Positions 9,307 through 16,732 of a stretch of DNA of 55,427 nt are shown one piece after another (the stretch's first letter is position 1; each line of letters starts with the position of its first letter). The DNA is from an uncultured Rhodospirillales bacterium (GTDB lineage: Bacteria; Pseudomonadota; Alphaproteobacteria; CAAGCB01; CAG-977): assembly GCA_902777205.1 (NCBI GenBank), contig CACYSU010000015.1, forward strand, positions 1 to 55,427, read 5' to 3'. Below the pieces are notes generated by a model. It was not told where the DNA came from, did not search any database, and was given only the letters and a program-made list of their open reading frames with translations. The translations under genes were made by a program, and so were the position numbers.

Positions 9307-10965
9307 ATGGACAAAACATCGACAGCCGCACAAAAGGACAAACTTTCGCCGGAACAGGCCGCGTCCATCCGGATATCCCGCGAAATGGCCGCCAAACTGA
9401 AAACCAAGTGGGAGGATCTGCAAAAACGCCAAAACGGCCGGCGCGTCAGATCGGACGACCGCATCAGCTCCGTTTCCATCATCCGCAGCCGTCAGGGCAA
9501 GGAATCCGTGCGCGTCAACATGGGCGACGGCCGCGAAATCCTCGGCGCGTCCATGGAACGGGCGGCCGCCGAATTTGAAAAAACGGCGCGCAAAGTTTAC
9601 GCCGGTTCCAGAATCGAAGAATTTTTAAGAAAGATCAAAGAAAACGGCTGGGATGCCGTCGAAGGCGAAATCCCCGCCGAAATCAAGGACGCCGTGCGCA
9701 GCGCGTGCGAACGCGCGAACATTTCCCTGTCGTCCAAAGGCGAACGCGCCAAGGAACGCGAAGCGTCGCAGCGCGCTGCCGAAACGGCCGACCGCGCCAT
9801 AAAGGCCGCCGTCCGTCCCGCCGCGCAGCCGGCCGCGTTCGACAACAAAAAAGCGGCCGATTTCATTGTCGCCGCCGCCGTCGCCGACTTCGCCGCCTCC
9901 GCTTTCTGTAAAAACAGCGGCATAAAGATGATCAAGCCGACGCAACAACGCCGCAAGGGATCGTCCTCCAAACGCGAAACAATCGCCCTGAAAATGCCGG
10001 ACGGCTCTTTATTTAACATCGATCAGGTCGGCGACAACATCAACGCCAACCGTGTCAAAGCGCAGGCGATAGCCGAAACTTTGTTCCGTCGCGAAAAAGG
10101 GTGGCCTGCGGAAAAAGGCGACGAAAAACTGTTGGCGGCCATGGCGAAACTGAAAATCGAAACGCTGGCCGATTTGCTGCAAAAATCCGGCCGCGTCAAC
10201 AACGTGTCCGACAAACTGATCCCTGAAAAATACAAGGCCGCTTTGGCGCAGGAAAAAGAGAAAGACATCAACAATTTGAAAATATTCAATGAAAAATTCC
10301 GCCCGCCAAGAGCCAATGGCGGAAATAAAACCAAACGCACCGCCGAAACCGTATCGCTGGATATGCGGGTCGGACGCAATATTGACGATATGGTGCAGGA
10401 ATGCCGCGCGAACAAAAATGAAAATAAAAAACTTTCCGCCGAGGATATGAACAAATACACCCTGCTCAACTTTTACGGCAAAATGAACAAAGAGGACGTC
10501 ATCACACCCGCCGCTGAAAAATTCGCGGCGCAAATGGCGGAAAAGGGCGTTTCCGGTAAAGAGTTGTTCGCCAAATACAACAACGGCAAAACGTCGCAAA
10601 AGGAAATGGAAAGCTATATCGCCGACCGTGTCAGCGGGAAACTGCCCGCCCCCGCCCCGAAAAAAGGCAAAAAGAAGAAAAAACAGAACACGGCCGCCTC
10701 CCCCGCCAAAAAAACGGCCGGCGCGGAAAAAACAACCGCGAATGAAAAACGGCGCGTGCTGGAACAGATGAAAGCGGATTACGCGGCGCAAAAACGACCG
10801 CAGCCCAAAGGATTGCAGCAGCAAATCGCCGGCCGGCAAACAACGGCCGCCGCGAAAACGGCAACAGGCAACACCGCGCCCCACCCCGCCGCCAAACGGC
10901 CGGTCGCCCTGTCCCCCGCGATGCAGGCGGCGCTGATCAAACAACGCATCACGCCCACGCGCTGA
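9307..10965 (+). CDS. Hypothetical lysine/alanine-rich protein
   Basis: A 552-residue hydrophilic protein that I do not recognise. Residues 1-180 are helical and charged. A short apolar stretch, 'AADFIVAAAVADFAASAF' near 185-205, is the only candidate membrane-proximal segment. Residues 280-430 hold a folded-looking region ('AMAKLKIETLADLLQKSG', 'TLLNFYGKMNKED'). From about 440 the tail is low complexity: a Lys run ('KKGKKKKKQN'), Ala, Pro and Gln. This composition suggests nucleic-acid binding or an intrinsically disordered tail. It has its own consensus promoter and AGGAGGA six bases before ATG, pointing to high expression. It ends 181 bases before the tracrRNA terminator region; no functional link to CRISPR is visible. 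Confidence 0.7.
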   Translation: MDKTSTAAQKDKLSPEQAASIRISREMAAKLKTKWEDLQKRQNGRRVRSDDRISSVSIIRSRQGKESVRVNMGDGREILGASMERAAAEFEKTARKVYAGSRIEEFLRKIKENGWDAVEGEIPAEIKDAVRSACERANISLSSKGERAKEREASQRAAETADRAIKAAVRPAAQPAAFDNKKAADFIVAAAVADFAASAFCKNSGIKMIKPTQQRRKGSSSKRETIALKMPDGSLFNIDQVGDNINANRVKAQAIAETLFRREKGWPAEKGDEKLLAAMAKLKIETLADLLQKSGRVNNVSDKLIPEKYKAALAQEKEKDINNLKIFNEKFRPPRANGGNKTKRTAETVSLDMRVGRNIDDMVQECRANKNENKKLSAEDMNKYTLLNFYGKMNKEDVITPAAEKFAAQMAEKGVSGKELFAKYNNGKTSQKEMESYIADRVSGKLPAPAPKKGKKKKKQNTAASPAKKTAGAEKTTANEKRRVLEQMKADYAAQKRPQPKGLQQQIAGRQTTAAAKTATGNTAPHPAAKRPVALSPAMQAALIKQRITPTR

Positions 10966-11145
10966 CCGCCGGAACGCAAGCCGGAATCCGGATAACCGCG
11001 ACATCAAACCGCGCCGCGCTTTCAACCGGCTGCAACACCTGATCGCCGCGTTCCGAACGACAGCAGCACCGGATATCCGATCGCCGTACTATCATAAACC
11101 GCCGCCGCGTCACAGCCGACCGGCGGCTTTCCATATTCTTTTGAT

Positions 11146-11242
11146 AAAAAGAAAGGGGGCGACGCGCGGTCAACCCCCGAATTTTGTGTGTCTTTGACAC
11201 TTGTTAGCGGAAAGAACACAAAATAATCATCTGCTAAATGAT
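11146..11242 (-). ncRNA. tracrRNA of the type II-C CRISPR system
   Basis: Read on the minus strand. The upper anti-repeat (11236-11217) pairs with the 3' half of the crRNA repeat in 19 of 20 positions. After a bulge, CCGCTAAC (11210-11203) pairs with the repeat start GTTGCGG around one bulged U. Next comes a perfect nexus hairpin GTGTC-AAA-GACAC (11200-11188), then a GC-rich hairpin with GGGGG/CCCCC arms (11178-11155) and the tail TTTCTTTTT (11154-11146), an intrinsic terminator. This is the order of a II-C tracrRNA: anti-repeat, nexus, terminal hairpin. The predicted promoter is TTGCAC (11277-11272), 17 bases, CAATAT (11254-11249). It guides RNase III trimming where used, and Cas9 loading. 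Confidence 0.85.
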
Positions 11243-11251
11243 ATATGGATA

Positions 11252-11277
11252 TTGCCATATTCAACCGAATAGTGCAA
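11252..11277. promoter_or_regulatory. Dyad holding overlapping divergent cas9 and tracrRNA promoters
   Basis: TTGC-NN-TATTC and GAATA-NN-GCAA arms make an imperfect 26-bp palindrome, 9 of 13 positions per arm. On the plus strand TTGCCA (11252-11257), 17 bases, CAAGAT (11275-11280) points at cas9. On the minus strand TTGCAC (11277-11272), 17 bases, CAATAT (11254-11249) points at the tracrRNA. Each -35 box coincides with the other's -10 region. Both -10 boxes match only 3 of 6 consensus bases. Confidence 0.45.
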
Positions 11278-11312: not shown

Positions 11313-14300
11313 ATGGATTATATTCTGGGATTGGATTTGGGATCGACATCATTGGGATGGAGCGTTGTCGAATTGGATAAAACCGGCGTCCCCGTCCGGT
11401 TGGAACGCATGGGCGTGCGCATTTTTTCAGACGGACGTGACAGTAAAAGCAAGGAACCGCTGGCTGTCGCGCGCAGAACGGCGCGTGGAATGCGCAGACG
11501 CCGCGACCGCTATGTGATGCGCCGCGAAACATTGATGCGCAAGCTGGTAAAATACGGTTTGATGCCCGAAAATGAATCCGAACGCAAAGCCTTGGAACGG
11601 TTAAATCCATATGAACTGCGCGCAAAAGGACTGAATGAAAAGCTGCCGCCCTATGAATTGGGGCGCGCCTTGTTTCACATCAACCAACGCCGCGGATTTA
11701 AAAGCAACCGCAAAACCGATCGCAAAAACGACGAAGCCGGCGCGATGAAATCCGCGATCAGGGATTTGACCGAAAAAATGACCGAAAGCGGCGCGCGGAC
11801 TTTGGGTGAATACTTGTATAATTTAAACAAAGACAAAAAATCGACACAGAATTTCGCCCCCGTCCGCGTGCGCACGCATTTGGAAAAAAGCAAGGCCGTT
11901 TATTCCATGTATCCCACGCGAGAAATGTACGAAGACGAAGTGCGCCAAATCTTTTTAAAACAGAATTTAAGCGATGAAATCAAAGCCGATTTGTTCCATA
12001 CGATTTTCGATCAGCGCCCTTTGAAAACGCCGCCGAAAGGCCGCTGTCCCTTTGAAAAAAGCGAAGAACGCTGCTATATCGCCTTTCCCGCGTTTCAACG
12101 TTTTCGCGCGTTGCAGCAAATCAATCAGCTGCGGGTACGCGACGACTTTACCGAAGTCGAATTGAACGACAAGCAAAAACGGGAACTGCGCCATTGGCTG
12201 CTGGATGATTTTTCAAAGCTGGACAAGGATTACCGCCTGACGTTCGCGGCAATTAAAAAGATTCTGAAATTGCCCAAAAACGTTAAATTCAATTTGGAAT
12301 CCGAACGCCGCAAAGGATTGGACGCGGACAAGACCTCCGCGCAGCTGCGCCCTCTGTTCGGAACTATTTGGGCGGAAAAGCAGGACGAAATCGTCGATTT
12401 GCTGCTGAATATGGAAAACGAAGACGAATTGAAGCAGGCTTTACGGAAATACGGCTTGCCCGATGAACAAATCGAACGGGTGCTGGCCGTGAATTTGCCG
12501 GACGGCACGGGATCGCTCAGCTTGAAAGCGATCGGTAAAATCAATCCTTTTTTGGAACAGGGAATGATGTACGACAAAGCGGTCGTCGCGGCGGGATATG
12601 TGTTTTCTAAAAAATTCGACAAGCTGCCCGATAAATATGAATCTTTCATTGATCCCGAATACGGCACCGTTTTTGATGAACTGCCCTATTACGGACAGGT
12701 TTTGCCAGAACAGGTCATCGGCGGAACGGGTAAGGACGAAGACAGAAATGATGAAGCCAAATTTTTCGGAAAAATCAACAACCCGACCGTTCATATCGCG
12801 TTAAACCAAGTGCGAAAACTAGTGAATGCCTTGGTAAAGAAATACGGTCATCCGAATTCGATCGTCGTCGAGCTGGCGCGTGATCTGAAGTTGTCGCGCG
12901 ACGAAAAAAAACGCCTTGAAAAAGAGCAAACGCAAAATGAAACGGAAAATAAGAAAATCGCTGAGGAATTTCAAAGATTAAATTCGGAAAAAGGACTAAA
13001 TATCAAAAATAATTACGATAACCGTATGAAATACAAACTGTGGGAAGATTCGTCCAAAAATCCGATGCAACGATGCTGCCCGTTTTGCGGCAAACCGATT
13101 CCCGCGGTGGAATTGGCAATGTCGGCGGAATTTGAAATTGAGCATTTGCTGCCGTTTTCACGCTCTTATCTGGATGCGCGATCAAACAAAGTACTTTCCT
13201 GCCGCCGGTGCAATCGTGAAAAAGGAAACCGTTCGCCGTGGGAAGCTTTCCATAACGACGCCAAACGCTGGAATGAAATTCTGGCGCGCGCGGAAAATCT
13301 GCCCGAAAACAAACGCTGGAAATTCAACGAAGACGCTTTTAAACGACTGCAAGATGAAAATGGCGACGTGCTGGCGCGAATGTTGACCGACACGCAATAT
13401 ATGTCGCGAATCGCGCGGCAATATTTGTGTTTTGCGGCAAATCCGAAACGGGTTTACGGCATTCCGGGGCAGTTGACATCAAAATTGCGCGAGCATTGGG
13501 GATTAAACTCCATTTTAAGCGAACAGCACGAAAAGGACCGCACCGATCACCGCCACCATGCGATCGACGCTTTTGTCGTTGCTTGCACCAGTCGCGGAAC
13601 ATTGCAAAAGTATGCGACAGAACGGCGTGATTTCGGCGAAATGCCGCAAGAAAAAGCACCGCACATCCCCTTCCCTGCGTTCAGATTGGCGGAAATCAAA
13701 GAGGCTTTTGATCAAATCGTGATTTCACACAAACCCGATCACGGCAATCCGCGAAAGGCGATCCGGCAAGGTAAAACCGTCGCCAAATTGCACGAAGAAA
13801 CATATTACGGCATGATCGGCGAAGGCGAGAAAAAAGGAACCGTACGGTTAACGAAAAGAGTTCCTTGTTTGGCGTTTACAAAGTCGTTCAACCCTCAAAA
13901 GAAACCGTATAAGCTGGAGGATATTGTCGATCAAAACAGAACAGCGAACAAAATTCGTAAACGATTGGAAAATTCAGATCCCGCGGATTACGAAAAAATC
14001 GTTATGGCATACTTTAACGAAAGAGGTATGAAACGCGTTAAAGTGTTTGAAGACCGGAACAAAAATGTTGTTTTGGCGTTCCATGACAGAAAGACGGGGC
14101 AACCGTACCGTTACGCGATTTACGGCGGTAACGCGTATGCCGAAATTTACTGTCCCGACCGCGGCAAAAACGCCGGAAAATGGCAGCTGGAAATCATACC
14201 GAATTTTAAAGCACATCAGAAAGGCTTTGTTCCGAACTGGCGGCACACGGACGCGCACGCAAAACTGATTATGCGTCTGCACATCGACGATATGGTCGCC

Positions 14301-14519
14301 TATGAAGAAAATGGAGAAACCGTTATTGCGCGCGTCAAAAAGATGACTGGTAATTTATTCTATTTAAGACCTCATCATGTAGCGAAAGAAGAAGCCGATA
14401 AGTTGTCATGGGCTGCTTCTGCAGAACAACTCAGGCTACATAATGGACGTAAAATCACCGTCACTATTGACGGCGTTGTTCTTGATTCAAAACGTCCGAA
14501 GGGCGACACGGATGGATAG
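11313..14519 (+). CDS. cas9: Type II-C CRISPR RNA-guided endonuclease Cas9
   Basis: A 1068-residue Cas9, a compact II-C size. RuvC-I is 'YILGLDLGSTSLGW' with D8; the arginine-rich bridge helix lies at about 54-80; RuvC-II 'SIVVELARDLKL' has E520; RuvC-III 'DHRHHAIDAF' has H749 and D752. The HNH centre is E610-H611 ('EIEHLLPFS') with N634, 23 residues on as in SpCas9 H840/N863. C589-x-x-C592 and C630-x-x-C633 flank the HNH and look like a Cys4 zinc site. All catalytic residues are present, so both strands of a target should be cut. ATG 11313 is chosen (AGGGG ahead) over TTG 11289. It overlaps cas1 by 8 bp; no csn2 or cas4 is present. Confidence 0.97.
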   Translation: MDYILGLDLGSTSLGWSVVELDKTGVPVRLERMGVRIFSDGRDSKSKEPLAVARRTARGMRRRRDRYVMRRETLMRKLVKYGLMPENESERKALERLNPYELRAKGLNEKLPPYELGRALFHINQRRGFKSNRKTDRKNDEAGAMKSAIRDLTEKMTESGARTLGEYLYNLNKDKKSTQNFAPVRVRTHLEKSKAVYSMYPTREMYEDEVRQIFLKQNLSDEIKADLFHTIFDQRPLKTPPKGRCPFEKSEERCYIAFPAFQRFRALQQINQLRVRDDFTEVELNDKQKRELRHWLLDDFSKLDKDYRLTFAAIKKILKLPKNVKFNLESERRKGLDADKTSAQLRPLFGTIWAEKQDEIVDLLLNMENEDELKQALRKYGLPDEQIERVLAVNLPDGTGSLSLKAIGKINPFLEQGMMYDKAVVAAGYVFSKKFDKLPDKYESFIDPEYGTVFDELPYYGQVLPEQVIGGTGKDEDRNDEAKFFGKINNPTVHIALNQVRKLVNALVKKYGHPNSIVVELARDLKLSRDEKKRLEKEQTQNETENKKIAEEFQRLNSEKGLNIKNNYDNRMKYKLWEDSSKNPMQRCCPFCGKPIPAVELAMSAEFEIEHLLPFSRSYLDARSNKVLSCRRCNREKGNRSPWEAFHNDAKRWNEILARAENLPENKRWKFNEDAFKRLQDENGDVLARMLTDTQYMSRIARQYLCFAANPKRVYGIPGQLTSKLREHWGLNSILSEQHEKDRTDHRHHAIDAFVVACTSRGTLQKYATERRDFGEMPQEKAPHIPFPAFRLAEIKEAFDQIVISHKPDHGNPRKAIRQGKTVAKLHEETYYGMIGEGEKKGTVRLTKRVPCLAFTKSFNPQKKPYKLEDIVDQNRTANKIRKRLENSDPADYEKIVMAYFNERGMKRVKVFEDRNKNVVLAFHDRKTGQPYRYAIYGGNAYAEIYCPDRGKNAGKWQLEIIPNFKAHQKGFVPNWRHTDAHAKLIMRLHIDDMVAYEENGETVIARVKKMTGNLFYLRPHHVAKEEADKLSWAASAEQLRLHNGRKITVTIDGVVLDSKRPKGDTDG

Positions 14520-15417
14520 AATCATCGAAATTGCGCAAGATAATCGACACTTGGCGACGGAGCACGGATTTATGACTGTCGCCGAAAATGGATCGGAAAT
14601 AGGCCGCGTTCCCCTTGACCAAATCGGCGCAGTTATCGCCAACGCGCACGGCTTGACGTATTCCAACAACTTGTTAGTGCGTCTGGCGGAGCAAAACGCG
14701 CCTTTGGTGATTTGCGGCAGCAATCACGTCCCCGTTTCCGTTATGCTTCCTTTGGACGGCCATCATTTGCAGGGCGACATCATCACGGCGCAAGCGGCGA
14801 TGAAACAAACAACGCTGAACCGTTTTTGGAAAGAAATCATTCAGGCTAAAATCAGACAGCAGGCGGAAGTATTGGACGCCTGCGGTTTGCCGGACAAACC
14901 ATTGCGTTATATGATTCCGCAAATCAAAAGCGGCGATCCCGAAAATTTAGAGGGACAAGCCGCGCGATTTTATTTTCAAACATTTTTTGGCAAAGCTTTT
15001 CGCCGCGACAGAACGCAGCAAGGCATCAACGCTTTGCTGAACTACGGTTACACGATTTTACGTTCCGCCGTTATTCGCGCGATTGTCGGCGCGGGACTGC
15101 ATCCGTCCTTGGGCATTCACCATTGCAACCAATACAACCCTATGCGGCTGGCTGACGATTTAATGGAACCGTTTCGTCCTCTGGTTGATTTTTGCGTGCA
15201 TCGGCTGGTCGTTGACAAAGTGGAGGAAGTCAACACCGCCGCCAAAAAAAGATTGGTTTCCTTGCTGTCATGCACGGCACAAACGGACAAAGGCGCGATT
15301 GAAATCAACACACTGATTTTAAATTTGGCCGTTTCAATGGCGAAATGCGCGTTGGGACAGGCGGAAAAATTGGACTTGCCGCCGCCGATGACGGGAATGG
15401 CGCTGTGGGGATTGTGA
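14512..15417 (+). CDS. cas1: CRISPR-associated endonuclease Cas1
   Basis: A 301-residue Cas1, the integrase subunit that with Cas2 inserts new spacers. The likely catalytic set is visible: E147 in 'ENLEGQAARFYF', H203 in 'HPSLGIHH', and the acidic 'ADDLMEPFRPLVD' following. The frame is open back to 14443 inside cas9, but ATG 14512 matches the II-C start (MDRIIEIAQDNRHL) and overlaps the cas9 stop by 8 bp, indicating translational coupling. cas2 follows with no gap. Intact, so the locus should be able to acquire spacers. Confidence 0.96.
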   Translation: MDRIIEIAQDNRHLATEHGFMTVAENGSEIGRVPLDQIGAVIANAHGLTYSNNLLVRLAEQNAPLVICGSNHVPVSVMLPLDGHHLQGDIITAQAAMKQTTLNRFWKEIIQAKIRQQAEVLDACGLPDKPLRYMIPQIKSGDPENLEGQAARFYFQTFFGKAFRRDRTQQGINALLNYGYTILRSAVIRAIVGAGLHPSLGIHHCNQYNPMRLADDLMEPFRPLVDFCVHRLVVDKVEEVNTAAKKRLVSLLSCTAQTDKGAIEINTLILNLAVSMAKCALGQAEKLDLPPPMTGMALWGL

Positions 15418-15747
15418 ATGTCGGTAACGGGGTATAATTTAATGTGGATGATGGTCATGTTCGATTTACCCGTAACTGAACCCGAAGAACGCAAGCGCGC
15501 GACGGCGTTCCGGAATTATTTGCTGGACGAAGGTTTTGAGATGAGCCAGTTTTCCGTATATCTGCGTTTTTGCGGCACGCGCGAAATGGCCAATCCGTTT
15601 GTGAAACGAATCAAAGCGCATATTCCGCCCGATGGAAATGTCAGTATTTTATTTTTTACGGACAAACAGTTCGCGGATATCATTACATTTCAGAATCGAA
15701 AACCCGTTTCCATGGCTGAAACACCTGATCAACTGACGCTTTTTTAA
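15418..15747 (+). CDS. cas2: CRISPR-associated protein Cas2
   Basis: A 109-residue Cas2. 'MWMMVMFDLPV' is the signature first strand with the metal-binding Asp, followed by 'ERKRATAFRNYLLDEGFEMSQFSVYLRF' in fragments typical of II-C Cas2, and the 'NVSILFFTDKQF' strand. It is the structural partner in the Cas1-Cas2 integration complex. ATG follows the cas1 stop directly; starts at Met9 or Met11 are also possible, since related proteins often begin at 'MWM'. It ends the operon, and a terminator follows 14 bases downstream. Confidence 0.95.
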   Translation: MSVTGYNLMWMMVMFDLPVTEPEERKRATAFRNYLLDEGFEMSQFSVYLRFCGTREMANPFVKRIKAHIPPDGNVSILFFTDKQFADIITFQNRKPVSMAETPDQLTLF

Positions 15748-15761
15748 CCTTGGAATATAGA

Positions 15762-15789
15762 AAAAAGCCTTTGTTTCCAAAGGCTTTTT
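15762..15789. terminator. Bidirectional terminator between cas2 and the CRISPR array
   Basis: AAAAAGCCTTTG (15762-15773), loop TTTC, CAAAGGCTTTTT (15778-15789): a perfect 12-bp stem with A and T tracts on opposite sides. It stops the cas operon from the left and array transcripts from the right, which fits convergent transcription. Confidence 0.9.
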
Positions 15790-15797
15790 CCAATCAT

Positions 15798-16732
15798 ATT
15801 ATAGCAGATGGTTATTTTGTGTCAAACCACAACCTTTCCAGGTGTTTTTAAAGGAAAACGGTATTATAGCAGATGGTTATTTTGTGTCAAACCGCAACTC
15901 AACCTAAGTGGTGGACTTCAAATAAGAAATTATAGCAGATGGTTATTTTGTGTCAAACCGCAACTTCCCTTTCAGCCGTAATCAAATCGCCATAATTATA
16001 GCAGATGGTTATTTTGTGTCAAACCGCAACCAGCGGGAGTAAAATATGAAGACAACAAACATTATAGCAGATGGTTATTTTGTGTCAAACCGCAACATAT
16101 CCCGTCGATTTTGTTGGTTGCCGATTATTATAGCAGATGGTTATTTTGTGTCAAACCGCAACGAACACGCCGATGAATTAAGAGAGCGTCAAATTATAGC
16201 AGATGGTTATTTTGTGTCAAACCGCAACTGGGTGGTGCGATATGAAACATTCCTCGAAATTATAGCAGATGGTTATTTTGTGTCAAACCGCAACTAATGA
16301 CCCTTCTAAACTTCTGGACTTTATATTATAGCAGATGGTTATTTTGTGTCAAACCGCAACAACGTACACTTTCAACCATTCGCGACGTTGATTATAGCAG
16401 ATGGTTATTTTGTGTCAAACCGCAACAGAAATGGAAGCACGCTGTCGGCGTGGCGAATTATAGCAGATGGTTATTTTGTGTCAAACCGCAACCCATATGG
16501 TCTTTGCGATATTGGTGAAGTTATTATAGCAGATGGTTATTTTGTGTCAAACCGCAACGCGAAGCCAATTCGGTTATCATTCCGTCAAATTATAGCAGAT
16601 GGTTATTTTGTGTCAAACCGCAACGATTTTGGTTCAATGCTGCTTGGCGCTCAGATTATAGCAGATGGTTATTTTGTGTCAAACCGCAACTATTCGTGCG
16701 ACTTTTCGCCCAATTTGATTATTATAGCAGAT
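15798..16732 (-). CRISPR. Type II-C CRISPR array, 14 full repeats plus a truncated one
   Basis: Fourteen 36-bp repeats (plus strand begins ATTATAGCAG, ends ACCGCAAC) start at 15798, 15863, 15929, 15995, 16061, 16127, 16193, 16259, 16325, 16391, 16457, 16523, 16589 and 16655. A fifteenth copy at 16721 keeps only its first 12 bases. Spacers are 30 bp, except the leftmost at 29. All full copies are identical except the first, which has A instead of G at 15829. tracrRNA pairing and the GTTGCGG start show that crRNAs are read on the minus strand. In that direction each repeat carries TTGACA (bases 9-14), 16 bases, TATAAT (31-36) with TGC before it, so each spacer may have its own promoter. I found no obvious match of a spacer within the window. 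Confidence 0.97.

Follow-up and report, generated by a model that had tools for sequence, protein, structure and literature searches.

The window analysed here, a stretch of 55,427 nucleotides from an uncultured Rhodospirillales bacterium, holds a CRISPR array whose repeats each contain what reads as a sigma-70 promoter pointing into the adjacent spacer. This raises two questions: whether each guide RNA at this locus is made as a transcript of its own, and whether the -35 box, which accompanies the -10 box in every full repeat, is a working promoter element or an accident of repeat sequence.

An apparently complete type II-C locus

The cas genes and the tracrRNA gene associated with the array are as follows.

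11145-11245, minus strand: tracrRNA gene, divergent from cas9; ends approximate (duplex folding, boundaries by inspection)
11155-11159/11174-11178, minus strand: G+C-rich tracrRNA terminator stem, downstream of the anti-repeat
11202-11237, minus strand: tracrRNA anti-repeat, upstream of cas9 (duplex -36.9 kcal/mol)
11272-11277 and 11249-11254, minus strand: possible tracrRNA promoter, TTGCAC-N17-CAATAT (by inspection)
11313-14519, plus strand: cas9, type II-C, 1068 aa (TIGR01865, E 8.8e-180)
14512-15417, plus strand: cas1, NMENI type (TIGR03639, E 2e-74)
15418-15747, plus strand: cas2 (TIGR01573, E 3.4e-19)

The gene set is that of type II-C, which is marked by a Cas9 of about 1,000-1,100 aa together with Cas1 and Cas2 and by the lack of Csn2/Cas4: it comprises cas9 (1068 aa), cas1 and cas2 with no other gene between cas9 and the array. 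The array is antisense to and convergent with the cas genes and possesses a degenerate first repeat, a layout described for II-C (PMC4607530), and the genome encodes RNase III. Folding the repeat against the window gave a single outstanding duplex partner at 11202-11237, the next non-overlapping site reaching -27.5 kcal/mol; this repeat-complementary anti-repeat is followed by the terminator stem expected of a II-C tracrRNA. An ungapped anti-repeat scan misses the tracrRNA owing to an internal loop, and an Rfam scan of the window returned only tRNAs and no tracrRNA family. The locus is, in our view, a type II-C CRISPR-Cas9 system of the ordinary kind and apparently complete. The anti-repeat is complementary to a minus-strand array transcript only, and crRNAs are therefore read from the minus strand, which lends good support to the direction proposed in an earlier note on this DNA.

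The genome belongs to Alphaproteobacteria, the class of most of the named relatives closest to it in Cas9. Proteins of the same Cas9 group are also found on contigs of Verrucomicrobiota, Deferribacterota (Mucispirillum) and Spirochaetota (Treponema) (L099, L112, L168 and L172), which suggests that Cas9 may have reached these lineages by horizontal transfer. In two relatives with intact arrays the Cas9 reading frame is interrupted, by an internal TAA in one and by a split in the other (L020 in G011; L026/L096 in G009), reflecting either pseudogenisation or assembly error. Read on the plus strand, the anti-repeat (11202-11239) is itself a degenerate repeat directed into cas9, with the -10-like sequence CTAAAT, and might be a former or present cas9 promoter. 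Two further features lie near the locus: a 552-aa Lys/Ala-rich protein without a Pfam match, encoded just upstream of the tracrRNA/cas9 region (9307-10965, plus strand), and three tandem genes for putative DUF6782 metallopeptidases (PF20573; 4078-8609, minus strand), the first of which contains the domain twice, in an apparent gene-family expansion beside the CRISPR locus.

A complete promoter sequence in every full repeat

The array consists of the following parts.

15798-16690, minus strand: CRISPR array of 14 full 36-bp repeats with 30-nt spacers (direct count)
15798-15833, minus strand: last repeat, at the cas2-side adaptation end; one substitution, C5T on the crRNA strand; flank conserved in relatives
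16691-16720, minus strand: oldest spacer, 30 nt, next after the partial repeat
16721-16732, minus strand: oldest, decayed first repeat, 12 nt (ATCTGCTATAAT), extended -10 only (sequence and first-repeat decay pattern)

Thirteen of the 14 full repeats are identical and the copy at 15798 has one base changed; one spacer measures 29 nt. On the minus strand the repeat reads GTTGCGGTTTGACACAAAATAACCATCTGCTATAAT. A direct count found TTGACA at bases 9-14, followed after 16 nt by TATAAT at bases 31-36, in 14 of 14 full repeats, and in each TGC precedes TATAAT to give the extended -10 TGCTATAAT (bases 28-36). All 14 thus display the signature of repeat-embedded II-C promoters, a gnTAnaaT -10 flush with the repeat's 3' end. 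Both boxes in every full repeat, with the -10 ending at the repeat edge after TGC, had been claimed in the earlier note, and we confirm each element of this description. The copies are not independent, being a single duplicated sequence, so they amount to one coincidence or one adaptation.

We assessed how unusual this box pair is by pattern searches of the whole 1.94-Mb genome and by analysis of regions upstream of 27 of its tRNA genes, which together form the basis of our genome-wide promoter statistics. TTGACA-N15..19-TATAAT has 14 matches in the array and a single one in the rest of the genome, the reversed control pattern has 0 anywhere in it, and TTGAC followed after 16-18 nt by TATAAT is confined to the array. 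Shuffling of repeat bases 1-30 with the -10 held fixed produced a perfect -35 at a gap of 15-19 nt in 0.2% of cases, and a -35 with at least 5 of 6 matches in 3.3%.

The repeat also resembles the promoters of its host. Upstream of the tRNA genes, the -35 is TTGAC or TTGC[AC] with A, C or G as the sixth base, the -10 is TATAA[A/G/T] or TATAT[A/G], and the gap between them is mostly 15-17 nt, a pattern summarized as TTG[AC][CA][AG], 15-17 nt, TATAA[AGT]; TTGAC itself, with a sixth base of A, C or G, stands at the promoter position of 8 of the 27 genes. We fitted a two-box matrix to these regions, seeded with TTGNNN/TANNNT and consequently mildly biased toward such a form. On this matrix the minus strand of the repeat scores 15.4 bits, against -13.9 for its plus strand. 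The minus-strand value lies among those of the tRNA promoters (mostly 11-19), was reached by 3 of 5000 shuffled repeats, and is approached within 3 bits or exceeded at only 7 non-array sites in the 55-kb window. With its spacing of 16, the repeat conforms to the host sigma-70 promoter as captured by this seeded matrix (-35 TTG[AC][AC]N, -10 TATAAN, 15-17 nt). For the related S. meliloti, a passage of PMC2573895 cites the promoter consensus CTTGAC-N17-CTATAT. The sigma-70 type and the position proposed for the element are accordingly well supported, its boxes matching those of the host's own tRNA promoters.

Array polarity and a terminal hairpin

Six other loci of this family, and a comparison set of 92 II-C arrays of which a Cas9 tree covers part, allowed us to orient the array. 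The seven arrays of the family have mutually unrelated 5' flanks, and most of them share a conserved sequence beyond the last repeat, on the cas2 side (ATCAAnGAAAAAAGCCTTTG...CAAAGGCTTTTTTC). Published work on II-C arrays places growth at the last repeat, a promoter in each repeat and first-repeat decay mostly within the first 15 nt (PMC12080349); the polarity of the window's array agrees with this growth at the last repeat. In the set of 92, first repeats are altered in 47 arrays and last repeats in only 5. Changes in first repeats cluster in bases 1-16, with hardly any in 20-36, and -35 positions enjoy no special preservation. The window's first repeat is an extreme case of this decay: its -35 and tracrRNA-pairing part are gone, and the 12 nt left still provide the oldest spacer with an extended -10. 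New spacers would be inserted at the cas2-side end, the oldest repeat having decayed to its -10 end. We considered the sparing of the -10 in first repeats as proof of selection for promoter function and rejected it; bases 17-30 are spared almost equally, and inward erosion from the flank therefore explains the sparing just as well.

The promoter of the last repeat (15798-15833) has no spacer ahead of it and is directed into cas2. Between the two lies one further feature.

15760-15791, minus strand: hairpin with T-tract (dG -19.3, z -5.8), conserved in L021-L024

This hairpin begins 6 nt past the last repeat, at about the start site predicted for the last promoter. In 80 of the 92 II-C arrays a strong hairpin (z below -2) forms within 52 nt of the last repeat, its onset lying 0-12 nt past that repeat; the median z over all 92 is -5.15. 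A strict terminator rule found 30 cases after the last repeat against 0.4 expected from shuffled sequences, a background that leaves room for convergent gene pairs in general to show the same. The simplest reading is that the hairpin in the window acts as a terminator common to cas2, which it probably terminates on the plus strand, and to the array, and that it would also silence the last promoter. In the 80 arrays, too, the hairpin sits at the start site expected for a last, spacer-less promoter and may silence it; PMC12080349 examined the opposite end of the array.

A probable promoter for each spacer

Transcription of crRNAs from starts inside each spacer, driven by -10 boxes in the repeats, has been shown experimentally in C. 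jejuni (PMC3656092), and of 58 II-C species whose array is convergent, nearly all have predicted -10 boxes (PMC4607530). The earlier note had described promoters in repeats, with one transcript per spacer, as known from the II-C system of Neisseria meningitidis. Its interpretation holds for the most part, but the mechanism at our locus is this known one, with a start inside the spacer from the repeat -10 being established for II-C; its unusual feature is a perfect, host-matched -35 added to the known -10.

The minimal II-C system of Campylobacter jejuni (Dugar et al. 2013, PMC3656092) likewise has cas9-cas1-cas2, a repeat of 36 nt with an extended -10 at its end, crRNA starts within spacers (here predicted) and a need for tracrRNA and RNase III at the 3' end only, but its repeat (GTTTTAGTCCCTTTTTAAATTTCTTTATGGTAAAAT) lacks TTGACA at bases 9-14, has the weaker -10 TAAAAT and starts transcripts at spacer position five. 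Neisseria meningitidis and N. lactamica share with our locus a convergent array and an extended -10 in a GTTG...TGCTACAAT repeat, whereas bases 9-14 of the Neisseria repeat (GTTGTAGCTCCCTTTCTCATTTCGCAGTGCTACAAT; PMC4607530) are TCCCTT, leaving no -35, and the -10 is TACAAT. In Flavobacterium columnare and F. psychrophilum (PMC8092290, PMC10309648), a putative in-repeat element near -33 (TTG) matches the promoter code of the host and the array is read toward its variable end; there, however, the TTG element is of Bacteroidetes type rather than part of a sigma-70 pair, and the usual II-C -10 is reported missing. In the literature we found, proteobacterial and clostridial repeats are described with a -10 box alone and those of Flavobacterium with the TTG element.

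For the Neisseria II-C system, Zhang et al. 2013 (as cited in PMC8616872) reportedly observed starts inside the spacer, crRNA 5' ends independent of processing and one RNase III cut, in the next repeat. That 5' processing would be unnecessary had been claimed for this array; a single processing event has already been published for II-C.

At our locus, each guide RNA probably arises from a separate transcript. RNA polymerase with the housekeeping sigma-70 would bind TTGACA and TGCTATAAT in the repeat on the minus strand and start about 7 nt into the following spacer, giving a transcript of the last ~23-24 nt of that spacer, which would form the guide, and then the next repeat. The tracrRNA would pair with this repeat and RNase III would cut on the 3' side, so that the 5' end of the crRNA would be a primary end. 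The -10 would represent the part common to II-C repeats generally, and the perfect -35 a lineage-specific addition, arisen from TGGAC via one unpaired loop base, that probably raises promoter strength in the present host and may make the repeat stronger than an extended -10 alone; the spacer-less promoter at the array end would be shut off by the hairpin terminator at its start site. We consider this model as a whole, in which an ordinary II-C locus has a sigma-70 promoter per repeat, a lineage-specific -35 and a terminal hairpin that shuts the last promoter, to be likely. It would extend the repeat-as-promoter design of II-C to a complete consensus promoter. crRNA levels might then be independent of array position and expression near-equal among spacers. 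The usual footprint of RNA polymerase exceeds the 66-bp spacing of these promoters, so equal spacer expression is not to be assumed, and mutual exclusion of neighboring promoters is possible. Use of the -35 would make this row of 14 strong, near-identical promoters at 66-bp intervals a natural test of promoter interference.

Origin of the -35 box

All seven same-family loci, the window's included, share the TTGAC core and the 16-nt spacing, and the six others have TATAAT except for L020 (TAAAGT). Variable repeat positions among the seven are bases 14 and 21-24. At base 14, the sixth position of the -35, all four nucleotides occur in different species, and whichever is present pairs or wobbles with the tracrRNA of its species. 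The crRNA:tracrRNA duplex leaves bases 8-10 unpaired, among them the first two T of the -35.

Other alphaproteobacterial II-C arrays have the same skeleton (GTTGCGGyTGGAC...GCTAnAnT), spacing and gene order as ours, but differ in mostly having TGGAC or a close variant rather than TTGAC at bases 9-13 and an imperfect -10 (GCTAnAnT; GCTAAACT, GCTACAAT and so on). TGGAC is found in 29 arrays of the Cas9 tree and TTGAC in 14 of the 92 II-C arrays, 12 of them in the tree and among them those of Bartonella (L137), Mucispirillum (L112) and Treponema (L168); interchange between the two motifs requires at least three changes on the tree. With TTGAC in the minority among mostly-TGGAC alphaproteobacterial repeats, the -35 would most simply be a one-base derivative of an older TGGAC motif. 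TTGA stands at bases 9-12 in 10 of 24 low-GC loci versus 2 of 66 high-GC loci, and independent pairs on the Cas9 tree, at most six, yielded no link beyond chance between TTGA and either TATAAT or GC content. The present data therefore do not distinguish a -35 favoured by selection from an unpaired loop base subject to AT drift.

One tentative proposal, which we put forward as possible rather than probable, is that II-C repeats evolve as host-matched promoters and that a full -35 was gained through a single base in the loop left unpaired by tracrRNA, independently in this lineage, Bartonella, Mucispirillum and Treponema. If this is true, the same 36 bases would form a complete sigma-70 promoter, a tracrRNA-pairing segment and an integration target. 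The choice of TTGAC or TGGAC at one unpaired base offers a natural comparison of transcription with Cas9 or Cas1-Cas2 in shaping the repeat.

Alternative explanations

A competing account, which we judge conceivable but on balance doubtful, holds that the extended -10 works alone, as in Neisseria and Campylobacter, and that the -35 is accidental, a TGGAC motif serving Cas9/tracrRNA recognition or Cas1-Cas2 integration having drifted in AT-richer hosts. The -35 could in that case be an AT-drifted loop motif conserved for another reason. Base 10 lies in the unpaired loop of the crRNA:tracrRNA duplex, where G to T is pairing-neutral; the excess of TTGA in low-GC loci is what drift predicts, and TTGA and TATAAT lack a phylogenetically independent link. 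The oldest repeat of the window retains just its -10, and II-C repeats proven experimentally to work do so without a -35 (PMC3656092), which may be dispensable. That high-GC alphaproteobacteria mostly retain TGGAC, though TTGAC is one mutation away, also counts against a -35 in use. What an accident accounts for poorly is that the repeat perfectly matches the tRNA promoter type of its host at the correct spacing, and that the base varying among relatives is the sixth of the -35, which varies in host promoters too, while the core stays constant.

The remaining accounts dispense with the repeat promoters or with transcription altogether. The general CRISPR model would have a single precursor arise from a promoter outside the 5' end of the array (16733 upward) with the repeat boxes silent, and readthrough from upstream is compatible with the sequence; we find this quite unlikely, as the unrelated 5' flanks of the seven family arrays provide no conserved leader, and the conserved flank is at the opposite end, the last repeat being where II-C adaptation occurs (PMC12080349). 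Plus-strand crRNAs co-transcribed with cas2 are next to impossible in our estimation: the array does lie directly downstream of cas2, where readthrough of the cas operon would cover it, but such a transcript would be like the anti-repeat instead of complementary to it, the plus strand of the repeat scores poorly as a promoter (-13.9 bits), and a terminator-like hairpin intervenes between cas2 and the array. Finally, the array might be a relic lacking transcription or activity in this strain, a view consistent with a search of IMG/VR for six spacers as 23-27-nt exact strings (for strand and PAM), which returned no matches. We hold a relic to be highly improbable, given that the full repeats are identical except for the last, cas9, cas1 and cas2 are open, and pairing with the tracrRNA is intact.
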